Origin: Xiphias gladius
Lineage: Eukaryota > Chordata > Actinopteri > Istiophoriformes > Xiphiidae
Direction of reading: 5' to 3'
Assembly (NCBI RefSeq): GCF_016859285.1
Contig: NC_053420.1
Coordinates: 24,968,045 to 25,032,044, forward strand
DNA: 64,000 bases
How positions within the stretch are numbered: the first letter of the stretch is position 1; every line of letters starts with the position of its first letter. Of this stretch, positions 4,686 through 53,977 are shown in pieces. The notes under the pieces are model-generated. The model did not search any database and was not told where the DNA came from. It was given only the letters and a program-made list of their open reading frames with translations. A program made the translations under genes and the position numbers.

Positions 4686-4760
<75 letters not shown>

Positions 4761-10576: not shown

Positions 10577-10616
<40 letters not shown>

Positions 10617-10629
10617 TTAAATTACATAA

Positions 10630-10664
<35 letters not shown>

Positions 10665-11411: not shown

Positions 11412-11648
11412 TGGTCAGCCGCGGAGAGGACCAGAGGCGAGCTGAACACCCAACTAGGCGCTTAACAACGTCCCGGCATCGGTAAAACAGCACTTAGCGC
11501 AAACCCGACTTTCCCCCCCCTCGCGTTGTGACCTTCGCTCAAAGTTGCAGCAACCTGATGGCATCTACGGCTCGCACTGCGCACACACCGCCGGGCCCAG
11601 TCCGAACTGGCTACTTCTTTTGACGAAGTAAGGAAATGTGCTGGGGGA

Positions 11649-17300: not shown

Positions 17301-17610
17301 TCCCTGGCATGGTGGGTGGACTAAAAGCCAGACAGCTGATGCTGTCATCTGGAGGTGAAGTCACTTCAACATCCTGTAGGACAAGTCAGGAACATAAGCA
17401 ACAAAAGGAAAAACACAAAGCTGTCGGGTTAAAAGCAGAAGGCACAATTTTCAGCGAGCCATCATAACAACTTATAAAAAACCATGTCAAATAGTTTTCT
17501 CCTGCACTCCTCTGGTTTACCTTCATTGGATTGTGGCTGTCTGTTGTTGTACTCCCGAAGACACCAGTCCCACCTGTTCCAAACCCGGAGCTCGTCCCAA
17601 ATAAACTCAT
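14352..17610 (-). CDS. rae1: mRNA export factor RAE1 (Gle2), complete
   Basis: Eleven coding exons on the minus strand: 17610-17521, 17373-17269, 17063-16971, 16875-16789, 16704-16618, 16245-16174, 16053-15946, 15773-15667, 15463-15388, 14793-14599 and 14441-14352. All phases join to 369 aa (human 368). The protein begins [11 protein letters not shown] and folds as a seven-bladed WD40 propeller. Blade motifs are clear, for example [22 protein letters not shown] and [14 protein letters not shown]1 binds the GLEBS motif of NUP98 at the nuclear pore, aids mRNA export, and acts in spindle assembly and the mitotic checkpoint. The protein ends PRNKKW, one Trp longer than the remembered mammalian end PRNKK. 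Its neighbours rbm38 and bmp7 match human 20q13 in order and relative orientation. Confidence 0.97.
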
Positions 17611-17638
17611 AGTTTATTAACGTAATTCCTGATGTACA

Positions 17639-18429: not shown

Positions 18430-20774
18430 GGGTTAACGCTTGGAGGCAGTGCATGACAAAAAGTCACTTTACTGTTCTTGTAGAAAGCAGCCCAGGGGTG
18501 TGTGAAACACGTCTGGCTGCTGCACTCGGGGTTTGTATGGTTTCACGTCTATTGCCAGCTTATCCCAGCAGACCTACATGGGGCCAGGAGAGAAAAATGT
18601 AGGTTAATCATGGGTCGCAATGGGCGAACCCACAGTTCGCGCCATACAAGAGGTAGGCTACCTCCTCTGTCCCCCACAAGTGCCTCACCAGTGCAGCACA
18701 CATACAGTTCAGAGTATGGAGATTTGTTATTTGGATTTTTGTTACAGGAGCATTAACAAGTAGGTAAGCAGCTGCATTTGGTGGAGAAGATGGGACTATA
18801 CTACTTTATATACTGTAACTAGTAACAGTTGTCGGATTAATGTGGAGTAAGAAGCATAATATTTCCACCTGAAATGTAGAAGTGGGAGTATGAAGCGGAC
18901 TCAGTTGCAAGACCTCAACATTGGACTTAATTATCCAATCGTAGCCTACTTTGGTAAATGTCCTAACGTACTTTCCAACACTAATAATAACCATGCCTGT
19001 AGTCTGTAGTCCCTTTTGTAGCCTATTGAAATTTAGATTTTGCCTGCACGGACACACAATCTGAATGAAAGGGAGGTTGAATACAAAATAAAAATCTGGG
19101 CGATCGACAATTAGGCCAGTTGTGTGCAGGATAAAGATTTTTGGTGGTGGAGGATCAATAACAACCCTTCACAGTATAACTGACCCTTATATATGGACAA
19201 AACAAACCATTTTTCCAGTGTTTCTTATTCATCTGTTGTGTGCATTAAATTAGTATGACATACGCTATGGTGGTAGCTCCAGTGGGAGATGTAATGAATT
19301 ATCTGTATTGGAGCGGGTCAGTATACATTAAGCGGATCAATAGAATATGGTGCATACATTAAATTATGGCACTGCCAGTGAGAGGACATGTCGACACGCA
19401 TCCATCCGGCCGCAGAGTGCTTGAGCAAAACAGATTTTTACAGTCTTAAATAGTTACTATAAACCAAGTAGTAAGGTTTGCTAATGTTTGTGGTGGATAG
19501 GGAGGACTCATGAGTTTGTCTTGGTTTTAATGAATGAGTCACGTAGAGTGACCTGGGCTGGGAAATACATGTTTTTCTGGTGCTCATGTAACTTTGAATT
19601 ACCTTTTCTGTTGGATAATTTTAGTTTGAATGAATTTGTTCACGGATTGTTCCAGTGGTCCCCTTTGCACAAAGAGAGAAGTTAAAAATAGAAGTTGAGA
19701 AACAGAAAAGCACATTAGTAAAAGGCCATTTCCCTTTGGTAGCTGTGACACACTAACCTCCTCCCTTCGGTTTTATGTGCTGAGCCAGTCACCGCCATCC
19801 TTAAACCAGAGTTAGGCACAGGTATAATCTGTACTGAAGTGTAGGATTGTTCATTTGTCATTCATCGCCCTCCAACTCCTCTTTAAGTCTCTATTAAAGC
19901 AGTCAAAGTGGAGTACTTTACACATTGTTTTGGTAATTCATAGGGGCTATTGGCATGTCCCTTCATGTACCTGGGTTGCTGCTGCTGATCACTCAGACCC
20001 TTCAACAGTTAGGGTGGGCCTGAGTTTATTGTTTGAGTTCAAAGGTGTCTACCTTGAAGAAGGGATTAGGGGATTTCCCCTCTTTACGTTTAGACTTATC
20101 ATTTAGTGTTGAAGTATCTCCCTGTGCGCAGCGTTGAGGCACAGAGCCGGTGAATTTAAGCTGTCCATACCTGTTATAAGCAAAATAGCATGGGATGTGA
20201 AAAAATTAAGTATACATGAACTTTGATGACGGGGCTGAAGAACCAGGGGGTGGCTGAGAGGCTGGCTGCCAGACTAGAGGAGAATGAGACAGATTTCCAG
20301 GGAAAAGATGTGCTAATCAGATATTAATAAAACCCTACTTTCATCAGTGGCCAGACAAGCATGTCCAAACAAAGGACGCAATGATGGGACACTTGGGTTT
20401 GAGAGGTCCACACCCCGCCCATCTTATTACCAAGATAGAGAAGTGCACTTCATGAAAGGCCAGTGATCCATTCTCGCCCTACTTTTCATTGCCTCACTCC
20501 CACACGCCGCCCCAGTCTTGGTTTATTCCATTCTGAACCCTTCCTGCCCCTCCCCTGACACAGCCTCAATAAAATCCATTCCCAAGTTGCCATCAAGAAG
20601 AGCGCACGGCAATGTCAGACAGTGCGTAACGACAGATGAAGAGGGAGTGGTATTCGGAGTTGATAGAAGATAGTGTGCTTTGCTCCCCCACATAAAGGAG
20701 GACTCTTCATTAACAAACCGCATCTCCAGTGTCACCTTTCGACTTACTAGAGCCGCGCGTAATATTTGGGTAGA
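18430..20774. other. rae1-bmp7 intergenic region and bmp7 5' flank
   Basis: The genes diverge across about 2.3 kb. No SPO11-like or other coding exon was recognised on either strand. The final few hundred bases before 20775 must hold the bmp7 5' UTR and promoter, but no clear TATA or CCAAT element could be assigned. Confidence 0.5.
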
Positions 20775-23700
20775 ATGATGACAAGCGCCTTGGCGACAAC
20801 ATTGACACTCCTGTCTTGGGGTTACTGCGTGTTGGCCACGCAGGTCGCCTTCTCCAACTTCTCCATGGACAACGAGGTGCGCTCCAGCTTCATCCAGCGG
20901 CGGCTGCGGAGCCAGGAGCGCAGGGAGATGCAGCGGGAGATCCTCTCCATCCTGGGGCTGCCGCACCGTCCGCGTCCGCACGTCCACACCAGACAGAACG
21001 CTGCCCCGATGTTCATGCTGGACCTGTACAATACCATCTCCACAGACACCGAGCCCCACGGATATTCTTATTACAAGCCCGTTTTACCCACCCGGGCCGC
21101 CCCCATGGTCACCCCACAGGACAGCCGCTTCCTAGATGACGCAGATATGGTGATGAGCTTTGCCAACCTCGGTAAGTTAACAGTCCTTTCAGTTTTTCCA
21201 ATTTATAAACGTAGTCTCTCTAATTTTAAGTAAATAACATAGACGTACTGGGTGTGTATTGTTTTAGCAGCATGACACAATTTGATTTTATGTACATTTT
21301 TTATTATAACTCTTTTTTTAAGGACGTATACTCTGTGCCTGTGATACTCTGTACTGAGTGTCACAATCAAAATCTGCTCCTCCTATATCACCGTTGACCA
21401 CAAAATAATACCAATGGGAGTGCTTCATAAAAATTTGTAACACTTTAAAAAAAAGTTACTTATTAGTTAGATGAGTACTTTCCCAAACTGTCCAAAACAA
21501 CAAGCAATAACTCCAGTATATTATGTTGCTCAGGGGCAGTTCTATCTTTGTTATCTGAGTCAATCAGCGCAGGGATCAAGGTTTTAAATGCTTTCCACTT
21601 TGTTGTCAAGTCCTTCACAGCCACAACAGAGTGCACAGATTAAGTGTGCGTGTCTTTGCCTTTGCGTCTCTGACACTGTGGCTTTTAGGTCACTGTCTTC
21701 ACTTGAAATCAAGCATTATGCATTCCAAGCCGTAGATGTTATGACAACATGCCTGTATCTGATTTCCCCAGAATCCCTTCAAAGCTCTGGGGGAGGGGCT
21801 TTAGCATGGCTTTTGTTTCGCATGACTAGGAATTGAACAGGCATTTCTAAACCCCTGGGGAGTGAGAGACAAGTTGGGTGAGATCAAGATACAAACTGCA
21901 TCTAAACACATGTTATTGCTGTAGTAATCTCTGATATTGCAGGTGTGCGTGCATTCCTGTATCCGCGCCTGTTTGCATGTTTGTTCGGAGGGTGTAAATC
22001 ACAGGGGTCACAGGTGGGAGTTTGGGCTCACTCAGACATAATCAAATTTATAAAAGGGAAGTCCTGCCTTTGTTTCCCTTGGAGATCCTACGGCGGCTCT
22101 GATATCACTATGGTGAAACAAGCAGATGGCGTGGTGCCTGTGGCTCTTATCCGGATGTGGTTACATCCAAAACCAACTTTTTTCTTCTTTACGGCCCTCT
22201 CCTGCCTTAAGGCTTGGATGAGGGTCATAGGTCAATGTGAGGAGATGAAGTTTGTTCGTCTCAGATACGTCTCCCAGACACCTTTAACCAACTTTTTACT
22301 TGCCATTGAGTTTGAACTGAAGCCTTTAAATGAGGAGCCATTTAAAGTTATTTTTCAATCAGCATATGTGTGTGTAGTTAATATTAAACATTTTGGAAAC
22401 TGTGAAAAATCTGAATTGCATGACATAACATTTTATGCCCTCAGTTGTGAACTTTTGACAGTCTTTAGGTAATGAGATCTGGAAACATTGTTTCTGAAAA
22501 CCAGTAACAGATTTATGTGGTTCCACATCTGTAGACTTAGATTATAAAGCGAAAGGAGGGGGAAAAAAAGACACAATGAGTGTGTATTATTTCTCTCTCA
22601 AGCCCAGCACGGCCTCCTGTGCTGATGATTGGAGTTTTATAGCTCATTCTCCCACATTGTACTGGAGTGGCTCTATCTTGGTGGTCCCTGGATGAACGCT
22701 TCAAGACCAAATTGGATTATTTCCTTTCCAAAGACCACAGCTTCAAGTGTGAGGGAGAGTTGCTCTGTGTACCCAGGTATATAGTGCAGGTGGACAGTGC
22801 TTTAAGTAGCTTATTGAGTTATTTTAAAGAAGTCAGCCACATTTACTCAGTATCTTTAAGTGAAATACTTTACGGTCGAAGGAAAGTTGAAAGGAGGTAT
22901 TCAGCCCCTCTTTTATATTTGGTAGACGGTATCTGAGAGCTTATGTAGTCATATTGTAAAGTCTACACACACATTTTGTATATCACATAACTGCACACAT
23001 GCTCATACATGTACACGGCTGCATATGTTTACTTGTGTTGGAATGCCACACCACAGGTTGTACTCAAGAATCACGCGAAAAAACATTAGTCCCATTCTCA
23101 TGCAACATTACACAAGAAAGTAATGTTGAACGTACTGCTGAGGCCTGACTTTGCTGTCAGTCTTATCAGCCCTAGCTGTTCTGCAGCTATCTGCTCTGCT
23201 ACTCCTCATGTCAGCCTCCTTGTTTGCTGCTGCTGAGGTCTTTGTCACACCTGCAGAGCATGGGAAAAGGCATAATGACCAGAAATGTCACTGGCTATGA
23301 TTAAAGAAAAAAAAGGACGAGTGAAAAATGCTCTCCCAACAGTTAGAGGAATGACCGTTTCACTGAGGAACAGAAGGAGTATTGTGTGTCTCAGAACATG
23401 CAGGAAGAAATGTGTTTGTCCTGCTAAGCTGATCTGTAGGTAGCATAAGGAGATCATGTGAAGAATTTCTTTTACCCTGCCAGAAAATCTCATTAAACTT
23501 CTCATTACTTGTACATCCATGTGCAAAATAATTGCTTTCTTTTCACTCTTAAGCTCCACTTGTAATTGCACGATCTCGCTTGATGTGATACGTTTCACCC
23601 CTCCTCTCCTCTACATTCTGCAGCAGATTTATGAAAAGGTGCAAAAATTTTTGTTTAGTGAAAGCGTCTTTGCTGGTTCTAGTAACCTTCAACGAACCAG

Positions 23701-25213
23701 CTTAGGGTATAAAATATGTTGACAGATCTTGTCAACACATGCAGACACTCATGGATTTGAAAGAGTGGTAGATGTTCATTTGAGTAATATTTACCACTAA
23801 CTTAAATAACTTAAAAACGTACACATAACAAATGAATAGACAGAACATGAGTGCATCTGTCACGATTAGACAAATAATTATTGTTCAACAAGATCGCTTT
23901 TTCATCGTTGTTTAAAGTTTTGTTTCTGTGCAGACATTGTGATGCATCTTAACGCCAGGCACACTGATTTGTAAAAATACACTCCCACCTACTACAAAAT
24001 TGCAGTAGGTTAATGATAGCTCCGCTGTCTGGCCCTGCAGTGTCAGAAGGAATCTGAAGTGTTGAAATGCCTCCCAGAAGGAAGTTTGCATATCTGAGGT
24101 CTGATCTCTGCAGCTAATGGTCTCTAACGTAAACACACCAAGTTCTTACAAGCAATTATTGCTTTCATAAAAACACCCCTCATTCCCCTCCAGCATTTAA
24201 TTGCGGTCAAAGAAATGACTCGCAGGGTTCAGAATGCGCCGCTCTTAACGATGAACGGCTTGTGTGTGCTTTTGTGTTGTTAGAAGTGTTTTTAGACGAC
24301 TTTGAGTCAGTCTGTCTGCGAGTTGGAAGTAAATGTTATGTTTCTAGTGTTGGGATACTGTGTATATGGGTGTCTGCCACTGAAACAATAGTGGACGTAC
24401 GGACGCAGGGTGATGTCATGATGATGTCATGGTGTATGCCAGTGGGCAGGATGTTTTTAAAGTGGCTAATCGCTGCTCTGCTCTGCTCTGCTCACCTTCA
24501 CCAGAGACCTCCAGTGCTCTTTCCAAGGACAAACACATTGACTAACTCTGTAAAAACACAACACTGGAAAGCCCCAGGGAGCTTTGGGGTCTTTCTGACC
24601 AGCGTTCTTCTGGAAACTCTGAGTGTTCGAGAGCTTCAGCTGGCTCAGGGCGGGGTGGAAACCCCACTGTGCCACCGGCTACTGCTGCTTCACTTGATCC
24701 TCTACAATCAGAGTGAAATCACTGGACAGTAATAGATGGCAAAATTATCAGGGAGGTGTGGGTGGTACAGACTCTAGTAGTTAAGTCACACATGAATTTC
24801 GGTGGCTCTCTATACTTTACGTGACTGTGTTTGTAAAAGCACAGTGGCTGCTGTGGTTTTCCGGGCAGTGCCTTAACAGACCTTTTCTTGTGGTCAGCAC
24901 ATGTGTGCAGTTTAAACAGGGAGCCAAACTGAGCCCTGAGTATGTTCTTTCTCCCCCACATTGGCATGTATGGCAAACTTGACCTAAGTGGTGTTTAGAT
25001 CAATCACTTCACTGGTGGAAGCCGGATTTTTCCTGTTTCTGACAGTGCTTCCGAGATGTGGGCACAGCGACACACATCAGAGAATCCTTTGACTCAGTGA
25101 CAGTTTTGACAGATATTGCAGCCACTGACTGGTTTACCATCTGAATGTACTCAGCGGTTTGCTTTTTCCACACATGTATACACTTTCCCTGTGAGGCTCA
25201 GAAATATTATTTC

Positions 25214-25279
<66 letters not shown>

Positions 25280-28200
25280 GCAGATCAACCATTAATCATG
25301 GTGGTATCACAGTTGAGTACAGTATGGTCAGAGAATTTGATGAAACGTAGGCCTCAGTCAAATGTTGATTCAGAGCTTTTGACCTCTTTCTCTGCCACAA
25401 AGCCACCCTTACTTCGGGTCTGCTGTACATACTATATCCTCTTCTTTTTCTTCTCCTGATAGTTGATCAGGATCAGGATCTTCTCTACCAGCAGGGCCGA
25501 AGGGAATTTCGTTTTGACCTTTCCCGTATTCCAGAGGGAGAGGCCGTCACAGCAGCAGAGTTCAGGATTTACAAAGAGTTCATCCAAGAACACTACGAGA
25601 ATGAGACGCTCAGAGTCAGCATCTACCAGGTCCTGCAGGAGCCTCCAAATAGGTAAGGGGGGTCTTATTCTCAGCTCCCAGCCATTTCAATGTTTCCAGG
25701 CTGGTATTTTCTCTTGATTTTGTTGATGTTTTATGATATGCGTCACCTCGATCTAGTGTTTTTGGACATCACCAGTAACATGACTTTCCAGAAACAGTGT
25801 CCCCATTACTCTGGAAAATCCACAGAACACACTGTCAATGTTTTTTTTTAGGAATCTTTCTTTAGTAGAAAGTAGTTGTAAAGAAGACTGAGAAACCAGG
25901 GCACTGCTTGTAGTAAGACACATCGCTGGTGAATTTTTAACCATGCTAGCAGCTTTACTCCATGGATGACCTTGGTCCAGGCTGAAATATCTCAACAGTT
26001 ATTGAGTAGATGGCTGTTAAACTGGCATGAACTTAATGCCACCACGAAGTTGATTTTTTAATTCATCAAAGACTTTGTTTGGACAAATGACCAAATAACT
26101 AATGACCTTCCCATCAGCCTCAGCTGCATTTGTGTTGAGCGGTAATTAGCATATGTTAGCATGCTAACAGGCTAAATTAAGATGGTGAACATGATAAACA
26201 TTATACCTAATTAACAGCAGAATGTTAGAATGCTGATGTTAGCATTTAGCTCAAAGCGCCATTGTGCCTACGTACAGCCTCACATTATTTTCATGACAGC
26301 ATAGCTGTGGCCTCTTAGACAGGTTTAAACTGAATTTTTCAGTCACTGTAAAGAAATGACATTCTATTTATCTCTGTTAAATTGAAGCTGTGGCTGAAAT
26401 CTGAGCACTTAAAACCAGCTTTAGATGAAAAGAAAACTCTGCACAATCGGTAAGGGAAGGGCTTTTTTTTGTAATTTAGGTGAATCGAGCCTTTACAGCA
26501 TTTCTCAAATCATCTTCGAAGTCGTCGTGTTAGCTGGATGTGTCATTGCTACATATGCTTATTCTCTTATGTTAGTGACATAGTATGAGTAGTGTGATTG
26601 AATTTGAATAAACACATTATGCAGCGTGTTTTTCTGGGAAATGAGGTTGTTAGGCTGCTGTACATGCACACAGATCTGTCTGCACTGGCCGTGTCTGTCT
26701 ACGTTTCCCCCACAGGTTATTTCTGCTGATGTTAGAGTCAGCGCTGTAGCTGTTTACACAGACATTAGTGTCAATTACAGAAACACAGTGGTTCTCTCCA
26801 GAGCAAGTTTACTCTCACACAGTCAGAACAGGACAGTCCCCGGGAGACCTTCATTTATAACAAGCAGCTTTGACCACAAATAACACCCTCAACCCACAAG
26901 ACGTCATTTTACTCTCTGTTAGACAGGTGGTTATTCCTCCTTGTTTCTGTCTGTCTGACTGTCTGTAGCCCTCTCGCTGTCCCCACATCTGAAATTGGAT
27001 AACAACATGACAGATCTTCTTTTGAAGAACAGTTTATCATCTTGACAACCCCCTCTTCCTCATAAATCAAAGCTCCACCATCCACCCACATTATAAAATC
27101 TCTGTACCACATTACCCTGCCTGCCTCAGCCTGCCCGGGGGACATCAGTGAACAGACGGAATTAGATTTAAGTCCTTCATCGGTGACAGTGGGGCTGACG
27201 ATGGTGTTAAGGGCAACACCATTGTCATTCACAGACACAAAAAGGCCACTCCATACAGACGAGCAGGCTGCAGGACTAAAAGACAGACATCTGCCTGGGG
27301 GTCTGAAACTCAATCTGTAAACAAAGGTTTTGTCTGTGAAAACTGCCTTTAAGACGACACATCGGTGAAGGATTTTTCTTCTTGGAAGTTAAGAAAGTGT
27401 TCCTTTGATAATGGCTGTTCGCTGTGGGGGAATACATGATTCAAAGTGTTAGCCCTCAAAGGGAAGTTACGCTGAGGGTTGAGATTGTTATGTTTTTTTT
27501 AAGCTGAACTGACTAAGAAAATATATTTATTATTAAATTACTAAATTAACTTATTAAATTTTAAAGTACTTTCTCCTTGTGTCATAATCAACTTCCAGTA
27601 TTTGTGCCTTCTGCCTAAGACAAAAAAAGAAAGAAATGAAAATACAAAGAGGACGGTAGCACATTTTCTATTGCATCTTCTATATTTTTATTTTTTATTT
27701 TTTTGGATGACATAACAGAAGTGGACAATTTAATATAAACTTAATGAAACTGATCATGATTAATACTTGTTTCCTTTGTACCCAGTGGTTGTCTGAGGTC
27801 TACAGCCCACAGATATTTGTAGACACTTGGTATTTTCTTTCATAATGCTGATCTAACAGGCCTGTTCTGCAGCCATTTTCACTTGTTGCTTGTTTTAGAG
27901 CTTTCTGCATCCAGTCTGGTCTTCAGCACATGAAAAACATTCTCAGTTTGACTGAGGTCAGATGTCTGACTTGGCCAATCAACACCATTGCAGTGTTTGG
28001 CCGTAAAACATCTTGGCAGCGGTTAATGTATTATTTTCCTGGAGCTTTGTCTGAAAACTGGGGGAATATGTATGTGAATATGGATGTAAACACCTTCAAA
28101 CAGAAGGCTGGAAGTTAGTTCTTAACCTCAAAGTCGTTGTTTTACTTCAAATCCAATGCGCTGACGTATTCAGCCAAAACAACATAAAACAAGGTGTCCT

Positions 28201-29878
28201 AATACTGTAGATATCACAGGACCACACGTAGTTTGAGATTTCTAGCCTATTACATATTAATTTTACATTATTTTGATGACAGCTAGCCATTTTCCTAAGC
28301 ATATGATATACCTTTTAGGTTGTTTTCATAGCTTCCACACAACCATTGTTTGCCATTAATTTCACTAAAGAATGAAAATCAATGTACAGGAACTTGAAAA
28401 CAAGAGATACCTAAGTGTAATAATAATTCATCACAGTTGACAGCTCATCACAATAGGGATGGTTGAAAGTCTCTGTCTTCCAAGAAACTTTAATTAATCT
28501 GACATTTGTGTTTATATCAAAAAACATTGAAATGTAGATCTGTCTCGACATTAAACGGATACTATTCTCTCCCCAGTGAAGCGGAGCTGTTGCTGCTGGA
28601 CCAGCGAGATGTTTGGGCTGCAGAGGAGGGCTGGCTGGTTTTTGACCTGACAGCCACCAGTAACCTCTGGCTGTTCAACCCTGAGCAGAACCTCGGCCTG
28701 CACCTGGTTTTGGAGGACAGCCATGGTCAGTCGCTGCCATACAGTCATGGGGTGGGATCCACAGAAGCAGCAACAGTCTAAAGACTACAGTCTTTGTCTA
28801 AAGTAATGATTTGTGGTTATGATGAATCCTGTGGTTAATAGGGACGCCACATATTGAGTAAATCTGTGAAAGGATTTCTTACAGATTTCTTAAACTCTCC
28901 TAGAGTTTACGTAATAAATGTGGTTGTTGTGGTCATATTAGGATGAACATATGATTGTTCTGTAGAAACTCAGATGTGATTCAGTGGTTGGTTGAAGCTC
29001 CCTAAGGTTTGTTTCCTCTGTCTCCCCCTGTAGGCCAGAGGAGGAACCCGAGATTAGCAGGGCTGTTGACGGGCAGTGGGCCACAGGAAAAGCAGCCCTT
29101 CATGGTCGCCTTCTTCAGAGCCAGTGAGGTGCGCTTCCGCAGCATCCGTTCTGCCCAAGGCCACAAGGCTCGCCAGTCTAACCGCTCCAAACCTCAGAGG
29201 ACTGTTCAGGATGCAATAAAGGCAGTGGAGGCTGCAACAGGTGTCTTGTCCCTTAAAATCTTAGCATCATAGAGCCATAATGACTTTGACCTACAGGCCT
29301 ATAACTTTAATACATTTGTGTGTACTCATATTTGAATAATTCACTTTCAGATAACCTCGGTATCTCTAAAGAGGGATGTAAAAAGCGTGAGCTGTATGTC
29401 AGTTTCAGAGATTTGGGATGGCAGGTATAATTGAGAACTTTCATTTTATCTAATTTTAATGTAATTTCACTTAACTTCATTTCAGTAAGTGACAATTAAT
29501 TAATTTGCCTGTGGTTTTTCTCTGATCAGGACTGGATAATAGCACCAGAGGGCTATGCAGCATATTATTGCGAAGGGGAATGTGCTTTCCCTCTCAACTC
29601 CTACATGAATGCTACTAATCACGCTATTGTGCAAACTCTGGTAAGTCCCAAACAGCCCCTGATGACAAACACTTTCATTACAGCCTCCACTTTCTGTGAG
29701 GACTGATTTCAGCTTCTTCTAACAACAGGTGCACTTTATCAACCCGGAGACAGTGCCCAAGCCCTGCTGTGCCCCTACACAGCTCCATGGCATCTCAGTG
29801 CTCTACTTCGATGACAGCTCCAATGTCATCCTCAAGAAGTACCGCAACATGGTGGTCAGAGCTTGTGGCTGTCACTAA
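20775..29878 (+). CDS. bmp7: bone morphogenetic protein 7, complete
   Basis: Seven exons: 20775-21171, 25463-25652, 28577-28725, 29034-29240, 29351-29424, 29530-29640 and 29729-29878. They join in phase to 425 aa (human 431), with the same exon count as human BMP7. A hydrophobic signal peptide (about 1-22) is followed by a TGF-beta propeptide. A furin-type RSIR site falls after residue 284, leaving a mature chain of about 141 aa. The mature part carries the seven-cysteine knot and ends [11 protein letters not shown]7 is a secreted ligand for type I/II BMP receptors, acting through SMAD1/5/8 in dorsoventral patterning, kidney, eye and skeleton. The TTG upstream of the ATG is not a credible start. 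Teleosts often keep bmp7a and bmp7b, and which one this is cannot be decided here. Confidence 0.97.
21172..25462. other. bmp7: bmp7 intron 1 (4.3 kb)
   Basis: Large first intron with no recognisable gene. It carries a (GT)n tract at 25216-25277. Long first introns of BMP genes often hold enhancers, but none can be named from sequence alone. Confidence 0.6.
25216..25277. repeat. (GT)n microsatellite
   Basis: About 30 uninterrupted GT units, about 185 bases upstream of bmp7 exon 2. Confidence 0.97.
25800..26310. repeat. degraded interspersed fish repeat
   Basis: Contains phrases widespread in perciform genomes: a GCTGAAATATCTC segment, GCATGCTAACAGGC, and TTAGCATTTAGCTCAAAGC followed by GTACAGCCTCACA. 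This looks like an old non-autonomous DNA element in bmp7 intron 2. The family name cannot be given without a repeat library, and the ends are approximate. Confidence 0.5.
27785..28210. repeat. degraded DNA-transposon relic
   Basis: The left part has a transposon-internal phrase common in fish (GACTGAGGTCAGATG followed by GACTTGGCCAATC). The right part has the usual companion CTCAAAGTCGTTG ... TCAAATCCAATG ... CCAAAACAAC, then a CCTAATACT end. Together they resemble an internally deleted copy of the repeat whose ends read CCATAAGTATTTGGAC. It lies in bmp7 intron 2. Its superfamily is not certain. Confidence 0.45.
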
Positions 29879-30817
29879 TCGCTTTTCCCCTTCCTTTGAG
29901 TTTTGCAAATCCGGAGAGGGATGCATATAAACACAGAGGTGGAGGAAACAGAGACGAGATGATTGACTGCCTGGTGACAAGGGAACTCCTGCCACAGAAC
30001 AAAGTTTATTCTGAGAGACTGTCTTTATGATCAGCAGCTGAGTCGCCCTTGTAGTATTAACCACTACCACACCCCAATCAGCACTAATGGTCAGAGAGAG
30101 AGGCTGCACAAAAGATTTTCCTTTTAGTGTGACTAGAAAAAGTCCACTAAAAGGACTCCAAGTAGTGTTGAGTTACTTGGGAAGCTCAAACAAAACATGG
30201 ATTGCTAAAAACATAATGTAAAAAGTTTCAACCATTTTCCGTATTTGCAGAGATCATGTAATGTACTACACATATCTGCATTTGAATTGTCTTTTGACAA
30301 GAGGTATGAGAATATGAAATATTGCTTGCATGGAAATGTGAATTTGATAGTTACTCAGCCCATAAAACTTTAAATCTCCACCTTCCTGTTCAATCACTTC
30401 ACATTGTGTTTTGGAACCACTGGATGAACTTATTTCCTGATCAGAAAAAATGTTCCTCAACAGACTTCACTGGTGTTGAACTGGTTGTTCAGCAGACCAG
30501 TTGGGCCAGGTCAGGTGTAAGACATCTGGCAGCTTGTGTGTGTGCGCTGCTGATGTAGGGGAGCTCAGTGAAGAATGACGGCCAAGACTGTTAATAGTGA
30601 ATAGGGTTGAAAGAACTGGCTTTTGGGCCTCATTTCCTGGTGCAGACATTTAACACTAGGCCTGTGAAAGGCCTACAGTCTGCAAAATGTCAGTGATTCA
30701 TCTTCATGAGGCGGACATCGGGGTGGGCAACATCACCCCCAACTGCAGAGCTGCAGGTCAGGTCAGATCAAACAGAGGCTGTAATTTTATTTTGTCAGAT
30801 TAAAGTAGCTGAATAAA
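29879..30817 (+). other. bmp7: probable bmp7 3' UTR with poly-A signal
   Basis: Noncoding sequence from the bmp7 stop to AATAAA at 30812-30817. No closer canonical signal was seen on the plus strand. A TTAA-flanked element starts about 100 bases further on. Confidence 0.45.
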
Positions 30818-33171: not shown

Positions 33172-36100
33172 CTACATGCAATTAGTCCCTAGACCCCTCA
33201 GCTCAGGGGCTGAATAGTGTCTCCTCCGGACTGCCTCTGCCTCCTTCTTCTCCCCCCCTGCTGGCCACTGTGGCCGCGGGGGAACCTGTGGGTGTGACAC
33301 CTTTACGAGCTCACACCCTCTCTCTGACCCTCTGAGTGAGGTTTTTGGCTCCAGGGCGGCTGACGGTGGAGGTTGTGGAGGTAAGACGGGTGTGAGGGCC
33401 AGGCAGACGTCCCCCACGCTGAGCTGGCGGCACTGCAGGCCACAGAGACGGGCGGTCCTCTGAGGGCTGCAGGAGGACCAGCCCTGCCCACGCACAAAGA
33501 ACGGGTATTCCACGTAGACATCCACCAACTCCTGGTGGAGGGAAACACATGTATACAGTAGAATGAGACAGAGAAATAGAGCATACACACTTGTTCACTG
33601 GGGGGGGTGTTCCAGTTTGTGCTGTATTCATGTCACATAGCAGTTACAGTGAACGAAACTTGGAAGTGTTTAATGATTTCAGACTTGTTTGAAACCACAT
33701 ACAGAGAGGGCCAGTAAAAACTTTAGGGATTTTTTGACGGTCCCCCAGCCCACCCACCAGGTTTTGTCCGATGGTTATGTTCAATTTCATTATTAATGAT
33801 AAAACATTGCACAAAGCAGCAGGTGGAGCTAAGGAACGCTTCAATAATGCCATTCACAGCAGCTCCTCTCATAAATAAGACAGTTTAATGAGCCAAGACT
33901 TCAGCAGGAAACTTTCTTCCAAAGACAAAAATATACAGTTCCCCTGCATATTAGTTCACCTCAGCCGAACATGAATACAACGTGCCACATTCATCACCCA
34001 ACATCCCACATCTGCTTCCAGTGGCAGAGTAAAATGTCTGTTTCAGGAAACACTGAAGTTTCTGTCAGTGCAGGCAGTGTGAACATTTTTTTTAGCAGGC
34101 AGTCATATCTACGGGCTACAAGTTGCAGAACTGAGATGTGCCTCTGTTTGTTAAATTCATTTATAAAGCTGTTGCATTTGGTTTCTCTTTCATGCTGTGC
34201 ACAATACTGCCACTACTGTAAATACTGTGTGTAGTCGTTCTGCTGACATGATGCATAAAGTGAGAACTGCTGGTAGTAATGTTGCTGACATCACAGAACT
34301 GATTCGGATTATCCAGATATTGGATTTGACGATTTGCTTTAAAAGTCTGGAGGTCTTTGATAGAGTTCAGGAGACATCCTGAGGATGGCCCCTATGATCC
34401 GACTGGGTCCACTTGAAATGTGTACGGAACAGCTCACCAATACGTCGAAAATGCACAGAGGGTCAAGTAGCACGCTCTCGTGCGCACCTCAAATGTCAGG
34501 AACGCAGAGAGGGCCAGTCAAGGGACTGACAGGGCTGGTAAAAACTTGATGGGTTTTTTTGACAGCCACAAACGATGCGGCAGCCAGCCGAGATTTGACC
34601 CGGCATGCATGATGGCCAAGTTCAACTATGATTGACAATGGAAAAAGATGTGTGTTGAGTGTGGGAGCGGGGCCATGGGGTGACATTACTTTGTGGTTTG
34701 CTGAGTGACTATCTCGATGGCATCAGGTGGAAGGTACGCCAGGCTGCAGCACACGGAAAATTAATTCTCTTGACATTATTATATATGAAACAGCCAACCA
34801 GATTTATTTAGGCCTACTTATTGATGAAAGGTGAACGCTACTCCGGATCATTCCAGGCGGCCCACTTTAACCCCTGCCTATACCTATTCAATATTTTCAG
34901 TACAGACCTTTGGTTTAAATTCAGGCTCATTCTTTGCATTTTTTTGCGAAGGCAGCACACGTACCCTGGAGTTACTTGGATCTTACTTATAGGTTATGTA
35001 CTACATCTTAAACATTGCAATATGCAATGTCACCCACAAATGGAAAAATCCTGTGCGAAAAATCTTGCGGTCAGGAGGTCGCCGTCAAGTTTTCTAGTGT
35101 GCATTTGTGGAATGTTTCTGCGTACGCATACCCCTGATTATAGTATGAATAGAAGCGTGTTCGTATCCACAGCCGTGTCCATCTGAGGGCAAGCGAAAAC
35201 TATGAACTGGCCTTGAGGCTGGAATTCTTCAATACTATTAAATGTACTTCTTTGTTGTGGACAAATCCCATAAAAATTCTCTCAGTACTCTCTGACTTCC
35301 AACCCTCTCTGTGGTAATCAGCCACAAGTCCATTGGTTCCCACTGAAGACTTAAATATTTAAAAATGGGCCACAAATATATAGTTTCTTTTTTTTTAAAA
35401 GGCTCAATAATTTCCTGAAACAGCTGGGCACTGTAGTTTTTTTTTTAGCAAATGTTACTCAAACAGAAGTACATGGTGCACTTTTTCGGGACTATTTTCA
35501 GCTGTGGATTAATACACATTGTCTGTAGTAGTACTTTGCGGCACGAGGACGGTGTATGTGGGAATGCCCGTGTTCATCATAATAAAGAAATAAGTCAGTC
35601 AGGTGTGGCTAATTCATGTATTTGAATAGTTTTTGGACAACAATGGAGCTCTATGGCATCAGGCTTTGGCTACACATGAAATACTTGTTAGTAGGATCAA
35701 TTCACTGTTGGTTTTTGGTATTTTCATTTGATGTGTTTACAGTAAAAAATATAAAATAATACTAGCCTTATTCCTTAATGTGTCATAGTAAAAGCCTGAC
35801 TGAAGGGATTTTCTCATTAAGATTTTTGAGAAAATTTAAGAATTCATCCTCTATGCCTTAATCCTGTTCAATCAATGGTATTCATAACTGAAGGAATATC
35901 AAGATTGTGTTAATAGTAATTCCCTTATGACCTGAACGCAACATTTGGCACTGCTTAAGGAGAAACTACTTCACGCATGATGAATACTACAGAGTGATTT
36001 TCCATCACCTGTGACTGTTGCTCGTCAAGGAGGATGAGGAGGCGTGAGATGGAGGAGGAGGAGGCTGAAGGGGAGATGCTCTGCACCGTGCAGTTGCTCA

Positions 36101-37061
36101 GGCGCAGGTCTGGACAGGCCAGTGATCCTAGCAGGAAGTCCTCCGTCTGCAGGTGCTCCACTCGTCTGAGCCGCCCGTCTCTGAGCTCAATCAGAGAGCC
36201 GGCCAAGAAGTGAGGGAGCAGCCAGGGGAAACGGTTAGGAGGGGAAGAGGAGGAAGAAGAATGCTCGGAAGAGGGCAGAACAGGAGATCTTGATGTGTCC
36301 TCTTTCATGGAAGTGTATGTGCTGTTTGAGTTATCGCCAGGGGAAACTCTTCTGACTGAATATCCAGAAACAGGATGTCTGACAGCGTTTGTTGATTTGT
36401 GCAAGAAATCATGTTGGCCCTCATGTGGAGAGTGAGGTAGGCATGTGCTCAATGATGGAGGACTTGCTTTTTCAACCCATGGAGCATACTCAACTTTCCT
36501 GTCTCTTCTCCTCACGTATGGTTCTTTATTCCTGCCATTGCGCTGCCTGACTGTGTTCAAACCCTTGTCCCTTAAAGTCTTGAGGTGCTCCCAGTTGTAC
36601 CCTCCACTCATTCTCTGGAAACCCTCAGAGACCAGGGAGATAGGGCTAAATTTGGAGTGGTGGTGTGGATGGCCTGGGTGGACTGCAGGTGTGCCGGATA
36701 GGTGGCTGTGGTGCTGATAGTTATGGGAAAAGTCCCATCCAGGGTGCGGGGGGTTGAACTCTCTCCACTCTGCCCAGCCACGATGCTCCCTGAATGCGGA
36801 TAGCACATGAGGCTTGGACCTGGTGAATGTGTGAGTCGGCATCCAGGGCTGGTAGAGCGCAGGAACCCGTCTCGGCACGGGCTGAAATGGGCCTGTGTGT
36901 TTCATCCTAAACTCGCTGTGGCTCTTGTAAGGGTAGGGCGCCTTGAATGTTGTAGCATCACATTGCTGCTGCTGTGTTAGTGAGCTCGGTCTTTGTTCCC
37001 TCTTTTTCAGTGGAAGGCTGTCCCTGTCCGGGACTAGAATCGGGTTTGGTGTGAAGTTCAT
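33172..37061 (-). CDS. ataxin-1-family protein with AXH domain (extra ohnolog)
   Basis: Two coding exons on the minus strand: 37061-36009 and 33531-33172 (stop TAG), about 470 aa. The N-terminus keeps the family motif as SLPLKKRE (ATXN1 and ATXN1L: CLPPKKR), followed by a run of only four Gln (residues 30-33). The middle is rich in His, Ser and Pro. The AXH domain covers about 280-400, with FLAGSLIELRDGRLRRVE, EYPFFVRGQGWSS and LSVGDVC. It is split by an intron at the same place as in ATXN1. Near the end RRRHYSAPEL (Ser458) matches the ATXN1 14-3-3 site. ATXN1 proteins are nuclear and work with Capicua as transcriptional repressors through AXH. The protein is much shorter than ATXN1 (about 815) or ATXN1L (about 689). 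Start: the first ATG is used; the frame stays open upstream to an acceptor at 37104, so an N-terminal extension is possible. Promoter and 5' UTR exons were not located. Confidence 0.85.
33697..33800 (+). repeat. dispersed repeat, copy B
   Basis: Shares an ACAGAGAGGGCCAG segment followed by AAAAACTTTAGGGATTTTT and GACGG with copies near 31440-31520 and 34500-34570. Same orientation as both. Confidence 0.6.
34450..34640 (+). repeat. dispersed repeat, copy C
   Basis: Longest of the two intronic copies. It shares GTGCGCACC, GCAGAGAGGGCCAG and TAAAAACTTGATGGG followed by a T run and GACAGCC with the copy inside the TTAA element. A small internal duplication of the GGGACTGACAGGGCT type is present. 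Confidence 0.6.
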
Positions 37062-37098: not shown

Positions 37099-37870
37099 CC
37101 CCTCCTGCAGAAGTTGAGGAAGTGTTGTGGTCATGTGATACAGACTCCATTAGTGTCTTGGCAAGCGTTGTAGATAGGTAGGTCAAAGGTTGTCAGGTTC
37201 TAAAAAGTAGAAGAAACAAACATTTTTAAAAACAACTTCAAATCCTCGCAAACAAAGTGTTAAGCTGGAGAAAACCATTTTATGATTCTCTTTACCCAGC
37301 CTCTCTGAATGTGACCACCTGCTGAGGTCACTGCCTGTAAATTTCCCTTGACATCTCAACAATAACTACGCCATCAGCTTCAAATTAAGGCTTTCCAACC
37401 ACCAATTGCTATATTGATGGGCTTTAGTTTGATGGACATCCATCAACTCTTCTGTGAAAATATAAAATAAAGTTTAAAAAAAAGAGAGAAAAAAGTTACT
37501 ATGGTAACAAAGTACTGAACAGTGTGGTCGGTGAAGGAATGAGTGAAGTAAGGACAAGGCAAAATAAAAGGCTGGGGGTGGGCGTAAAGTTAGAGGTAAG
37601 ATTTAAGCAGGAAATTCACTTCCTTTGTTGTTAATAATATGTTTCAATCAAGTTCTCACGTGACATTTTCCATTAGAAACAAAGGAAAGTGTGTGTTTCA
37701 ATAGGTGCAGGACGTTGAGCACACAGCCCCAGCCTCTCTCTCTTTCTTGTGGACCTAAAGTGATCTCCAACACTTCAAGCTACTGAAATCCCATTGTTCT
37801 CCTTACATGCAAGCAGAGTGAGTCAGTACACTCAGGAGGGATAAATGTTAGCACCTTGTGGCCACACAGA

Positions 37871-37872
<2 letters not shown>

Positions 37873-37933
<61 letters not shown>

Positions 37934-37937
37934 ACAC
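37873..37937. repeat. (CA)n microsatellite
   Basis: About 25 CA units, then a short interrupted CACG part. Confidence 0.95.

Positions 37938-40052: not shown

Positions 40053-40141
<89 letters not shown>
40053..40141. repeat. (CA)n microsatellite, longest in the window
   Basis: About 44 uninterrupted CA units, preceded by a CT-rich stretch at 39986-40008. Confidence 0.97.
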
Positions 40142-51444: not shown

Positions 51445-51517
<73 letters not shown>

Positions 51518-53977
51518 CCTGTATGCCCATAGGTGCTGTCAGCCAGTCCAGCCCCAGGGTTGGAATTTCTCCTCTCCCTCTCCTCCCTCCAAAGCTGTCT
51601 GACCTAAGCGCTCCCAGTGCCGATGAGACCAGGGGACAGGCTGTCAGACAGGGCAAAGCAGAGCTACAGTGACAAGCTTGTGTCCTGCCGTCGCCACAGA
51701 CATGTGTCCGGGCACGAGTCAGGGGCCGAGGACTGCGCTGATGCAGCACTCTGAAGAAGGCAACCTGTTGATGCTTTCAGGCAACATCTACATTATTTTG
51801 GACTTAAAGCGATAGCAGCTTTTTCCTGACTGCAGCAGTTATATGTTTGGTAGATTACGGAGGATTTGCGAAGAGGAATCTCTTCTGTTTTGTCAGGGAG
51901 AAAAGTAGAGTCCTTTCTTTTCCTGGTATTGTAAACATCCTGAGCATTGTTCACCGCATACGCAAGGTCTCTTCTTCTTTAAGATGAATTTAAAGAAAGA
52001 GTTCACTTTTGTGCTTAGAGTTAGATAAGAAGGTTGTTGCCACTCTCATATGTTTCATAGGTAAATACGAAGCTACAGCCAGGACACGGGTTGCTGAGCT
52101 TTAAAGTTGTTGGTAGGCAGATTTTGTTACCACTGGACAGAGCCAGGCTAACTGTTTCCCCCTGTTTCTAGTCTTCGTGCGGTTGCTGGCCACTGGTTCC
52201 AGCAACATATTTACCATACAGATATGAGAGTGTTATCAATCTTTTCATCTAACTTGACAAGAAAACATATTCGTGTATTTCCCAAAAATATTATATGTCG
52301 TTTAGCTCTGTTGCTGCCTTTATATTTCTAATCTATTTTACGTTTTTTCTTCATATTTGCAGACAATGTCGGAGAGATCAGACATGGTTTCTTCACACTA
52401 ATCACAAGTGCGGTTTTCCTCTCAGTGGCAGTCATAGTCGCTGAAATTTTCAGTATTTACTGAGACCGGCATCTCCCCTCTAATTGTCCCTCCTGCAGTC
52501 ACACTCTGCTGCAGTTCACCCCTCCGCTCCCACATTGGACTTGCACTCAGCTTTATTACAATGATGCCGATAAGGGGGGAACATGAGATTGCATGGTTTC
52601 TCAAAACAAGATTAACTTGATAAAAGAACCCGACAGCTTGCTTTTGCAGATCAATCTGTGGATCAGGACTGATTTAGAAAATGTACATGCCTGGTACAGT
52701 GGATATTTGGACGGTTGGTTCAATTAGCGTTCTGATAAAAGCAACAGTTTGCTTTATCTTTGTGTCAGTGGAATGAATCGTAACCCACAGAAATGAAAGT
52801 TAATTGGAATATAGAATGAAACACCATTGTTTACAGTTAAGATATCAACAATACCCTTTATTAATTGTGAGATATGTAATTGACTTTTCATAATGTTTCC
52901 ATGCTATGTTTTATTTCAATAGTCAATTTCAGCAGAGTCCAAAAAAAGGGAAATCCACCTCCTTATACATGTCACTTATAGCTCAATGTCTCCCCCTTTT
53001 GGCTGCCAACACTTGACCACTGTGTGACTGTAAAATGGGTCTCAAACTACAGTACGTGCCGCATTATACAACAGCAGGTAAACTCACTGACTTGCACACC
53101 CATCAGAAACTAGTCTGTGACATCCCCATGTGTTGTGTTTGATTGGAATCCAGCCTTACATGATGTCTGGCCTCCAGACTCCTGGTGTCAGGTATAAAAC
53201 TTTACCTGAGCTTGTATCTTATGTCCTGTCCTTCTGCTGTGTTTGCCAGCGGAGACGGAGCGAGGCCAGAGGCTCCCAGATGTGGACGCAGCGCAGCAGC
53301 TGAAGCTGAGAGAGAGACAGCGTTTCTTCGAGGAGGTCTTCCAGCATGATGTGGACGTCTACCTGTCCTCGGCGCACCTTTGCATCAGAGACTACAAGAG
53401 ACGTGAGTTGGACTGTTGGTATTTCCTTCAATACATGCACACTCGCATAAAGACGCGGATAATTTCTTATCTTCCTGTCTTCTTGCAGCCCCGATTGGCA
53501 GCATCTCATCTATGGAGGTGAATGTGGACTTGCTGGACCAGATGGAGCTGATTGAGATCTCTGACCAGGAGGCTTTAGATGTCTTCTTAAGCTCTGGAGG
53601 AGAAGAGGGAGTGCTGAACTCCCCACTGCCAGGTATGGCAACTGGAAATAGAACAGAGATTACAAGAGATTTAACAGCAAAATGGCATTCCTGACAATGT
53701 TTTCATCTGACTCACAGTCCAAGGAAACAACAACAACGAGGAAGTCATCAGTAAAGGACTGTTTCGACACGTCCTTGAGAGTCATGACGCCAAGTCCCGC
53801 ATGTCCTCCACATCTTCAAACTCCTCCTCCGACAGCCAGTCCACCAATACCAACGGGGGAGACACGCTTGTAGTCGGGTCAGACGATGAAGAAACACACA
53901 CCAGCACTGTCAAGAGGAGAGCTGCGCCTCCAGAGATACAGAAGGTGAAAACTCAGATTCCGTCATCGTCTTCCTAG
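41771..53977 (+). CDS. dbndd2: dysbindin domain-containing protein 2, complete
   Basis: Four exons: 41771-41813, 53250-53402, 53489-53632 and 53718-53977. They join in phase (1, 1, 1) to 199 aa. The short first exon gives MSSSSSNLHNKRLP. Exon 2 encodes a charged helix, LKLRERQRFFEEVFQ. Exon 3 encodes the family block PPIGSISSMEVNVD and an acidic ISDQEALDVFL. Exon 4 encodes a Ser-rich stretch and an acidic GSDDEE. The same blocks occur in human DBNDD2 (casein kinase 1 binding protein), which has PPIGSISSMEVNVD and DVFL. DBNDD1 lacks the exact block. DBNDD2 binds and inhibits casein kinase 1 delta/epsilon. The first exon is separated by an 11.4-kb intron, so another promoter and first exon are possible. 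A basic tail, VKRRAAPPEIQKVK, precedes the end. Poly-A signal at 54535. Confidence 0.9.
42550..42646. repeat. mixed (CA)n/(CACG)n microsatellite
   Basis: CA units interrupted by CG and CATA, ending in about ten pure CA units. The alternating purine-pyrimidine run is nearly unbroken. Confidence 0.92.
44960..45095. mobile_element. short hAT-type MITE
   Basis: Left end TAGAGTTGAAATGATCAG followed by CGATTAATCGACAG. Right end, in reverse complement, begins TAGGGCTGCAACTG and includes TTTTAATCGACTAAT. These are the ends of a very common fish MITE that pairs TAGGGCTGCAAC with a GTTTCAGCTCTA-type terminus. Only 136 bp remain, so the centre is deleted. A clear 8-bp target duplication was not seen. 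Confidence 0.6.
47760..47945. repeat. AT-rich tandem repeat, about 70-bp period
   Basis: Three imperfect units start near 47764, 47833 and 47904, each with TTATTTCTGTATT and TTTAGC/TTCAGC. It lies in dbndd2 intron 1, with more AT-rich sequence to the left (about 47630-47750). Confidence 0.6.
49194..49605 (+). repeat. purine-rich (GAAA/GACA)n low-complexity tract
   Basis: About 400 bases almost wholly of A and G with scattered C, built from AAAGA, GAAAGAC and GACAGA words. It makes long open frames of repeated Lys/Arg/Glu on plus and Ser/Phe/Leu on minus. These are composition artefacts, not genes. Confidence 0.85.
49780..50260 (-). mobile_element. LINE retrotransposon ORF2 fragment (Tx1/L1-like), decayed
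   Basis: On the minus strand the translation runs WRTLYKPPLTNGVGDLQWG, then after a frameshift VNVLGAVLNPNVPESCLFC. This is followed by a CCHC-type finger, C-x2-C-x7-H-x4-C, typical of the zf-RVT tail of non-LTR retrotransposons, and then GLAKMAVHLSRKEKK. A second frameshift and stops break the frame, and the last recognised piece is MIKTRLKVILNDFK. It is 5'-truncated, as LINE copies usually are. It lies antisense in dbndd2 intron 1. Confidence 0.75.
50297..50343. repeat. perfect 17-bp inverted repeat (hairpin)
   Basis: Arms at 50297-50313 and 50327-50343 are exact reverse complements (TCAGTTTTCCATTGTTT and its partner), with a 13-base T/A-rich loop. The hairpin sits just beyond the 5' edge of the LINE fragment. 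Confidence 0.85.
51448..51515. repeat. (CA)n microsatellite
   Basis: About 33 uninterrupted CA units in dbndd2 intron 1. Confidence 0.97.

Follow-up and report, generated by a model that had tools for sequence, protein, structure and literature searches.

How did an ataxin-1-type gene come to lie beside bmp7 in the genome of the fish Xiphias gladius, and what would its product do? The ataxin-1 family underlies the human disease SCA1; human ATXN1 maps to 6p22.3, and the zebrafish genes are named atxn1a and atxn1b. No ataxin gene is known from the tetrapod BMP7-RBM38 block, which in human lies at 20q13, with RAE1 there too. In tetrapods a conserved TMEPAI-BMP7 block includes RBM38 and BMP7; in 2008 it was described as not clustered in teleosts, or as having genes not present there (PMC2515639). 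We analysed a 64-kb window (the whole stretch of DNA under study) on the X. gladius chromosome labelled here C21 and compared its ataxin-1-type gene with relatives on C1, C2, C8, C18, C22 and C24. An earlier note on this DNA had proposed a third ataxin-1 ohnolog from the early vertebrate genome duplications, kept in this fish and lost in mammals; AXH genes that are linked to dysbindin and RBM24/38 genes, and a corresponding gene trio on C18, support that proposal.

The window gene is confirmed as real, with a complete AXH domain. The 470-residue product is encoded on the minus strand by two exons (Table 1), with a donor site ACAG/GTGATG after 36009 and an acceptor site CCTCCACCAG/GAG before 33531. 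Exon 1 falls within a 391-aa stop-free frame, the longest in the window; 100 simulated 64-kb sequences that matched the window in dinucleotide frequencies reached at most 210 aa. The AXH profile (PF08517) matches residues 285–398 with an E-value of 4.5e-32 and 111.4 bits against a 33-bit cut-off, covering positions 1–115 of 116. The best solved structure for the domain is the human ATXN1 AXH domain (1oa8, E 1.9e-31; HBP1 scores approximately 1e-5), and the phase-0 GT-AG intron that splits the domain occupies an identical position in the C24, C22 and C18 genes. The features read from the sequence in the earlier note hold: an intact AXH domain, an intron splitting it, a short product with four consecutive Gln (residues 30–33), the SLPLKKRE N-terminal motif and a 14-3-3-type end (RHYSAP, residues 455–460). 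Rfam at gathering thresholds gave zero matches within the window, and the exon 1 protein gave two pattern matches in IMG/VR, neither a relative.

Table 1. Features of the window (positions are those of the window).
Feature	Position	Strand	Basis or remark
Ataxin-1-type gene, coding exon 1, residues 1–351	36009..37061	-	ATG at 37061
Intron, 2477 nt, GT-AG, phase 0, splits AXH domain	33532..36008	-	
Coding exon 2 and stop, residues 352–470	33172..33531	-	stop ends at 33172
AXH domain part 1, residues 285–351	36009..36209	-	Pfam PF08517
AXH domain part 2, residues 352–398	33391..33531	-	Pfam PF08517
SLPLKKRE, N-terminal motif, residues 15–22	36996..37019	-	sequence motif
RRRHYSAPE, RXXSXP 14-3-3 motif kept, UHM-ligand Trp to Tyr	33202..33228	-	sequence motif
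bmp7, prodomain in frame 20763–21233, mature domain in frame 29500–29706	20763..29900 (right end approximate)	+	
Dysbindin-domain gene, two exons recognised	53210..53694	+	Pfam PF04440, E 1.1e-15 and 3.1e-25; pairs with C18 copy
rbm38, RBM38-type first coding exon	3178..11414 (extent approximate)	-	Pfam and solved structures
rae1, exon 14569–14838 identified	14569..17613 (both extents approximate, by reading)	-	

A genome-wide profile search with PF08517 gave at least 13 scored matches, corresponding to at least seven genes: at least five of ataxin-1 type and at least two of HBP1 type (on C2 and C8). The ataxin-1-type genes are ATXN1-like on C24 and C22, ATXN1L-like on C1, the window gene on C21 and its sister on C18. 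HBP1 is set apart at 100/100 in the AXH trees; tree and score together rule out an HBP1 identity for the window gene and bear out its assignment to the ataxin-1 family. The C21 and C18 AXH domains are 59% identical to each other, and either is 43–53% identical to any of the other five rows. Support for the two as sisters is 100/99 without HBP1, 92–96/99 with HBP1 and a human ATXN1L row that is not tool-derived, and 61/18 with HBP1 and without that row.

The earlier note had named nesting of the protein, at low divergence, within an atxn1a, atxn1b or atxn1l clade as a result that would refute its reading; as far as the AU tests bear on it, this did not occur. Pairing of the window gene with a single other copy is rejected (C24, p = 0.003; C22, p = 0.0025; C1, p = 7e-5), also with tool-derived rows only (p = 0.0005–0.003; for C1, 0.003 and 0.0015). 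Grouping of the C18 and C21 pair with fish atxn1, human ATXN1 falling outside, is not rejected (p = 0.19–0.39; tool-derived rows, 0.20–0.25) and appears in one best tree at 38/0, so the AXH tree does not by itself date the split. A clade of ATXN1 plus ATXN1L with the pair outside it is likewise not rejected (p = 0.41). The evidence on orthology to ATXN1L is divided: beyond the rejection of the window gene with C1 alone, the intron and C-terminus are unlike those of C1, and the pair plus C1 is rejected (p = 0.005) only with the human row that is not tool-derived. Without that row the latter grouping has p = 0.15 with HBP1 and appears in the best tree at 49/22 without HBP1; given this and the 61/18 value for the pair, the AXH domain does not order the three groups.

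The unrejected grouping with fish atxn1 is what would be expected if the gene were an atxn1 copy from the ray-finned lineage, made after the tetrapod split and before the teleost duplication, locally or by dispersal, that landed beside bmp7; in its SAP motif and in where its intron lies, too, the gene resembles ATXN1 and not the C1 ATXN1L-type gene. Such a copy, however, would have had to land by chance with a dysbindin gene next to it and an RBM24/38 gene nearby, both related to ATXN1-linked genes, and AXH identity to the ATXN1 rows (46–53%) is lower than that between ATXN1 and ATXN1L rows (57–64%, the human ATXN1L row again not being tool-derived). We consider this origin improbable.

As the earlier note had claimed, the gene sits in a BMP7/RAE1/RBM38 block: the mature part of the window BMP gene matches BMP7 with a better score than BMP6, and the window holds a rae1 exon and an RBM38-type first exon. 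A further exon at 3178–3555 lacks a Pfam match and is assigned to rbm38 tentatively; the dysbindin-domain gene on the other side, which the earlier note does not mention, is presumably DBNDD2. On C18 a BMP7-type gene (+), an AXH gene (-) and a dysbindin gene (+) stand in the same order and on the same strands as on C21. This ordered trio points to a pair from the teleost duplication and argues against a recent transposed or retro-copied gene of this fish only, an origin that the earlier note had raised as the alternative, to be judged by the AXH gene content near bmp7 in other fish. Within this genome, the second AXH gene between a second BMP7-type and a second dysbindin gene contradicts it. 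Apart from the short length of the protein nothing speaks for such a copy, and the phase-0 intron kept at the family position and an identity to C18 of just 59% also count against it; its probability is negligible.

An ohnologous block predicts that AXH, dysbindin and RBM24/38 genes are linked on the paralogous chromosomes. The five dysbindin genes found are all on ataxin-1 chromosomes, one on each of the five; their distances from the ataxin-1-type gene are 20, 39 and 108 kb, 1.2 Mb and, on C22, 14.6 Mb. Four of the five ataxin-1-type genes have an RBM24/38 gene within about 0.74 Mb, and all four strong RBM24/38 matches (of 17) have an ataxin-1-type gene at most 733 kb away. Under uniform placement the chance probabilities are approximately 4e-8 (three of five dysbindin genes within 108 kb) and 1e-8 (four of four RBM genes), with thresholds picked after the data were seen. 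Trees of the linked genes split in the same way: dysbindin exon A (four rows) places C21 with C18 and C24 with C22 at 96/97, and RBM24/38 exon 1 agrees with lower support (81/79). In the latter tree the human RBM38 sequence, from a solved structure, sits with C22/C24, apart from C21 and C18, so this exon does not prove which copy is RBM38. Other families are less regular. CAS-family genes occur on C24, C21, C8 and C12 and not on C1 (C24 and C21 fit the block; C1 does not); TFAP2 genes on C21, C24, C5 and C4 are consistent with it, yet the distance to the window gene is 14 Mb. The 14.6 Mb that separate the C22 dysbindin gene and the different gene order seen on C18 and C22 count against the block. 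A BMP gene on C24 (60% prodomain, 67% mature exon) is of uncertain identity, and BMP6 was not established as a further paired gene.

Human ATXN1 is located with DTNBP1 and MYLIP (PMC8583371). The dysbindin linkage of all five genes and the RBM24/38 linkage of four echo the human DTNBP1-ATXN1 arrangement, and the third-ohnolog reading is therefore well supported. Very probably, then, the window gene belongs to a third vertebrate ataxin-1 subfamily, whose product would most likely be a nuclear co-repressor scaffold. This subfamily would have arisen in the early vertebrate genome duplications as an ohnolog of ATXN1 and ATXN1L; it would have been retained beside BMP7 and a dysbindin gene, doubled by the teleost duplication into the window copy and its C18 sister, and be missing from humans. 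We infer the date of origin, the function and the loss in mammals, the last in part from a literature that names one human ATXN1 paralogue. Our confidence is kept despite the weaker tree support because it rests on linkage.

From its sequence, the window copy is most likely a Capicua-binding nuclear co-repressor: the AXH domain would self-associate, bind Capicua and help to keep it on target genes, and the phosphorylated Ser in RRRHYSAP would recruit 14-3-3. In ATXN1, V591 together with S602 is required for Capicua binding (PMC9957872). With residues placed by motif and spacing, both C21 and C18 have the V591 equivalent; at the S602 position C18 still has Ser, and the window copy has Gly. By the definitions of the 14-3-3 and UHM-ligand motifs (PMC2791216), RKRRWSAP (NLS, UHM-ligand and 14-3-3) is complete in C18, and RRRHYSAP in the window copy retains the 14-3-3 consensus. 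Since the UHM-ligand Trp is Tyr, the link to splicing factors was probably lost in the window copy and kept in C18. The N-terminal motif reads CLPPKKRE or CLPPKKRD in the four remaining ataxin-1-type genes found (CLPPKKRE in C18) and is the degenerate SLPLKKRE here. Sequence comparison places the C-terminal element IPxEVKxxIEGxS in C24 and C1 (VPxEVKxxIEGxS in C22) and finds it absent from both C21 and C18. The C-terminal end is one of three conserved regions in the ATXN1 and ATXN1L proteins of one study (PMC8583371). Drosophila and C. elegans Atx1 cover almost solely the AXH domain (PMC2791216), so this end does not define the wider family.

The window copy is fast-evolving and short (branch length 0.61 against 0.35 for C18 in the AXH tree; 470 against 688 aa). 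Its rate, length and lost motifs could be signs of decay, with C18 carrying the function and the window gene on its way to a pseudogene, a view that agrees with the third-ohnolog reading on origin and not on function. The long branch, the degenerate N-terminal motif, the lost Trp and the reduced length fit decay; the open frame of 351 + 119 codons, the canonical splice sites, the intact AXH domain and a dN far below dS between the C21 and C18 AXH domains (0.37 against 0.99, 118 codons) do not, and we think it unlikely. A more speculative possibility, which we hold to be less likely than not, is that an original vertebrate third ataxin-1 is represented by two fish copies with split roles, C18 keeping the splicing-factor/14-3-3/NLS motif and the window copy having given up the splicing link to act as a short AXH/14-3-3 Capicua regulator.

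ATXN1L acts as a modifier of SCA1: it competes for Capicua and stabilises it (PMC10676324). Capicua isoforms have recently been paired with one or other ataxin-1 paralogue (PMC13390769). One paper on SCA1 in fish refers to atxn1a, atxn1b and atxn1l (PMC8583371). A third paralogue would alter the count used there and would likely supply a missing member of the ATXN1/ATXN1L duplication history; if the roles are split, a compensating partner would escape fish models that count those three genes alone, in species that have retained it. The pair would also offer a natural experiment, an ataxin-1 that lacks long polyglutamine and the conserved C-terminus, and in one copy the splicing-factor Trp as well, which isolates what the AXH domain can do alone. 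The window gene is most likely a new member of a known family, for which an earlier description is possible: a third paralogue was not found in the sources covered, which concern ataxin-1 paralogues, their residues and the BMP7 block. A human review names a single ATXN1 paralogue, ATXN1L at 16q22.2.

Among known systems, the window gene resembles ATXN1 (here C24 and C22) in having the AXH domain split at the same place by a phase-0 intron, a SAP/14-3-3 motif after it, and linkage to dysbindin and RBM24/38 genes; it differs in its AXH sequence (46–53% identity), in lacking the C-terminal IPxEVKxxIEGxS and the UHM-ligand Trp, in being much shorter and in adjoining bmp7. With ATXN1L/BOAT (human 16q22; here C1) it shares the AXH domain, the KKRE/KKRD N-terminal motif and a family role with Capicua, but AXH identity is 43–46% (human row not tool-derived), and in the C1 gene no intron splits the AXH domain, the C-terminal element is present and RRWSSP takes the place of RRWSAP. 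HBP1 (here C2 and C8) has an AXH domain in common with it, although a very distant one with the exon boundary elsewhere, in an HMG-box protein. The neighbours of the window gene match those of the tetrapod BMP7-RBM38 block (PMC2515639), to which the window adds an ataxin gene.

The earlier note placed an ataxin-1-type gene with an intact AXH domain (PF08517) and a product of about 470 aa at window positions 33172..37061. These particulars hold: on the minus strand, two coding exons run from an ATG at 37061 to a stop codon ending at 33172 and encode 470 aa, with a complete AXH domain at residues 285–398 (Pfam E = 4.5e-32). The nearest solved structure is human ATXN1 (E = 1.9e-31), with HBP1 far off (about 1e-5). 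No stop-free frame in the window is longer than that of exon 1 (391 codons between stops); 100 order-1 Markov sequences of 64 kb, simulated for comparison, reached at most 210. About 50 nt before the ATG there is a candidate 3' splice site, TTCTGCAG, which makes a 5' untranslated exon possible; the zebrafish atxn1 genes, which have such exons, confine their coding sequence to the last two exons (PMC8583371).

Coordinates of the window gene, two window neighbors and the chromosome C18 trio
Feature	Position	Strand	Remarks
Window gene, coding exon 1	window 37061-36009	-	1053 nt; opens with ATG
Window gene, intron	window, between 36009 and 33531	-	2477 nt; GT-AG, phase 0
Window gene, coding exon 2	window 33531-33172	-	ends with stop
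Cadherin-type gene	window 61.7-61.9 kb	+	weak Pfam match
Possible exon	window, near 63.1 kb	-	no Pfam match
BMP7-type prodomain exon (locus L032)	C18, 20.306 Mb	+	69% identical to window bmp7
AXH gene	C18, 20.340 Mb	-	PF08517
Dysbindin gene	C18, 20.379 Mb	+	

The fish's own assembly (690.8 Mb, 1298 contigs; window at C21:24968045-25032044) gave at least 13 PF08517 matches. All 13 candidates were scored and lie in seven genes, a lower bound: an ATXN1L-type gene on chromosome C1 (840 aa), ATXN1-type genes on C24 (822 aa) and C22 (833 aa), the window gene on C21 (470 aa), a further gene on C18 (688 aa), and one HBP1-type gene on each of C2 and C8. The five ataxin-1-type models were read from genomic sequence, without transcripts. 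The AXH-splitting intron described earlier is phase 0 and identically placed in C24, C22, C18 and C21; the C1 gene instead has an uninterrupted AXH domain, with its intron before that domain. The HBP1-type genes (L013 on C2, L014 on C8) have an exon boundary elsewhere within AXH, after FYVKNKG/FFVKNKG. The C1 gene (L009) carries a CAG/CAA-coded run of 13 Gln (residues 667–679) past the AXH domain; among the species compared in PMC8583371, the ATXN1 Gln tract occurs only in human and chimpanzee.

The C21 and C18 AXH domains are 59% identical, and either is 43–53% identical to the other five rows. Their sister relationship has branch supports of 100/99 without HBP1 (six tool-derived rows, or seven with a human ATXN1L row); with HBP1, support is 92–96/99 including that row and 61/18 without it. 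The human ATXN1L row is a provisional sequence; its 82% identity to the C1 gene suggests that it is sound. The BMP7-type, AXH and dysbindin genes have identical order and strands on C18 and C21. The simplest reading is that the two AXH genes are products of the teleost genome duplication, and the AXH gene therefore stood beside bmp7 before it. The strong RBM24/38 match on C18 is 0.73 Mb from the AXH gene, on the opposite side. None of the 23 BMP mature-domain matches in the genome is on C18, where the mature part of the BMP7-type gene may have diverged, or else been split or broken.

Nesting of the window protein inside the atxn1/atxn1l clade, the alternative to an old origin, was rejected for union with any single copy (AU p = 0.003 for C24, 0.0025 for C22, 7e-5 for C1; 0.0005–0.003 with tool-derived rows), but not for C18 and C21 joined to fish atxn1 to the exclusion of human ATXN1 (p = 0.19–0.39, with one such grouping in a best tree at 38/0; 0.20–0.25 without the provisional row). 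Joining C18 and C21 to C1 was rejected (p = 0.005) only with the provisional row in; without it, p was 0.15 or the grouping was present in the best tree at 49/22. The AXH tree alone leaves the split undated, and its date therefore rests on linkage.

As the earlier note had it, bmp7, rbm38 and rae1 lie together in the window beside the AXH gene, in the order rbm38 (-), rae1 (-), bmp7 (+), AXH gene (-), dysbindin-domain gene (+), cadherin-type gene (+) and a possible exon (-) that may be LSM14-like, with no Pfam match. The window also holds five long (CA)n microsatellites, four of them perfect (4688-4757, 25216-25277, 37863-37944, 40054-40140, 51448-51515), and a purine-rich stretch at 49200-49650 with several open frames and degenerate 31-base repeats (49280-49394), for which there is no gene evidence. 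We take human RBM24 to lie in the ATXN1/DTNBP1 neighborhood as well, RBM38, BMP7 and DBNDD2 to be on 20q, and DBNDD1 on 16q. The dysbindin neighbor matters because human ATXN1 adjoins DTNBP1 (dysbindin), along with JARID2 and MYLIP, an arrangement retained at zebrafish atxn1b (PMC8583371).

Five dysbindin genes (9 matches) were found in the genome, and their chromosomes are the same five that carry the ataxin-1-type genes. Their distances from the AXH gene are 108 kb (C24), 20 kb (C21), 1.2 Mb (C1), 39 kb (C18) and 14.6 Mb (C22). Four of 17 RBM24/38 matches are strong (none of the remaining 13 exceeds 48% identity), at 22 kb (C21), 733 kb (C18), 322 kb (C22) and 650 kb (C24). Neither set has a member on the HBP1 chromosomes C2 or C8. 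Under uniform placement the chance of such linkage is about 4e-8 (dysbindin) and 1e-8 (RBM24/38), figures that are only rough because the distance thresholds were drawn from the same data. C24 and C21 share the order RBM gene, AXH gene, dysbindin gene, from which C18 and C22 depart. The four-row tree of dysbindin exon A has two pairs, C21/C18 and C24/C22 (96/97), C1 offering no exon A for comparison; the RBM exon tree repeats this split (81/79). TFAP2 genes lie on C21, C24, C5 and C4 (two), and CAS-family genes on C24, C21, C8 and C12, with none on C1. A BMP5/6/7/8-type gene, BMP6 or other, is at C24:21.674-21.684 Mb (60% identical to window bmp7 in the prodomain, 67% in the mature exon).

By their shared gene families, the ATXN1/DTNBP1 and RBM38/BMP7 segments would be two segments of one duplication, with the C18 and C21 AXH genes part of the second; the duplication would therefore be older than the fish-tetrapod split. 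The third-ohnolog origin put forward earlier draws its support from linkage and no date from the AXH tree, and we consider it very probable that the window gene is an ohnolog from the early vertebrate duplications.

ATXN1 and ATXN1L bind Capicua through AXH and act as co-repressors (PMC10676324), and ATXN1 requires V591 and S602 for this binding (PMC9957872). With residues placed by motif and spacing, the V591 counterpart is retained in C21 and C18, and that of S602 is Ser in C18 and Gly in C21. By analogy, the window protein probably acts likewise as a Capicua-binding co-repressor. The 14-3-3-type end of the earlier note holds as a motif: RRRHYSAP in the window copy keeps the consensus, without the Trp of C18 RKRRWSAP. 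A C-terminal element of the C1, C24 and C22 proteins is absent from C21 and C18. Between C21 and C18, dN is 0.37 and dS 0.99 (118 AXH codons, NG86), which indicates purifying selection within AXH on the pair as a whole; the longer branch of the window copy (0.61 versus 0.35) makes relaxed constraint on it possible.

We found no description of a third ataxin-1 paralogue in the literature searched, older zebrafish AXH-family work being outside that search; the gene may be present in databases without a name. For human, one review gives ATXN1 just one paralogue; for zebrafish, the named set is atxn1a, atxn1b and atxn1l (PMC8583371), and atxn1a and atxn1b appear in a review of duplicated zebrafish genes. 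A 2008 paper (PMC2515639) describes a TMEPAI-BMP7 block, conserved in tetrapods, that includes RBM38 and BMP7; in teleosts it found the block unclustered or its genes absent, whereas the window has bmp7, rae1 and rbm38 together. The window gene is a new member of the known ataxin-1 family, and probably represents a new subfamily within it.
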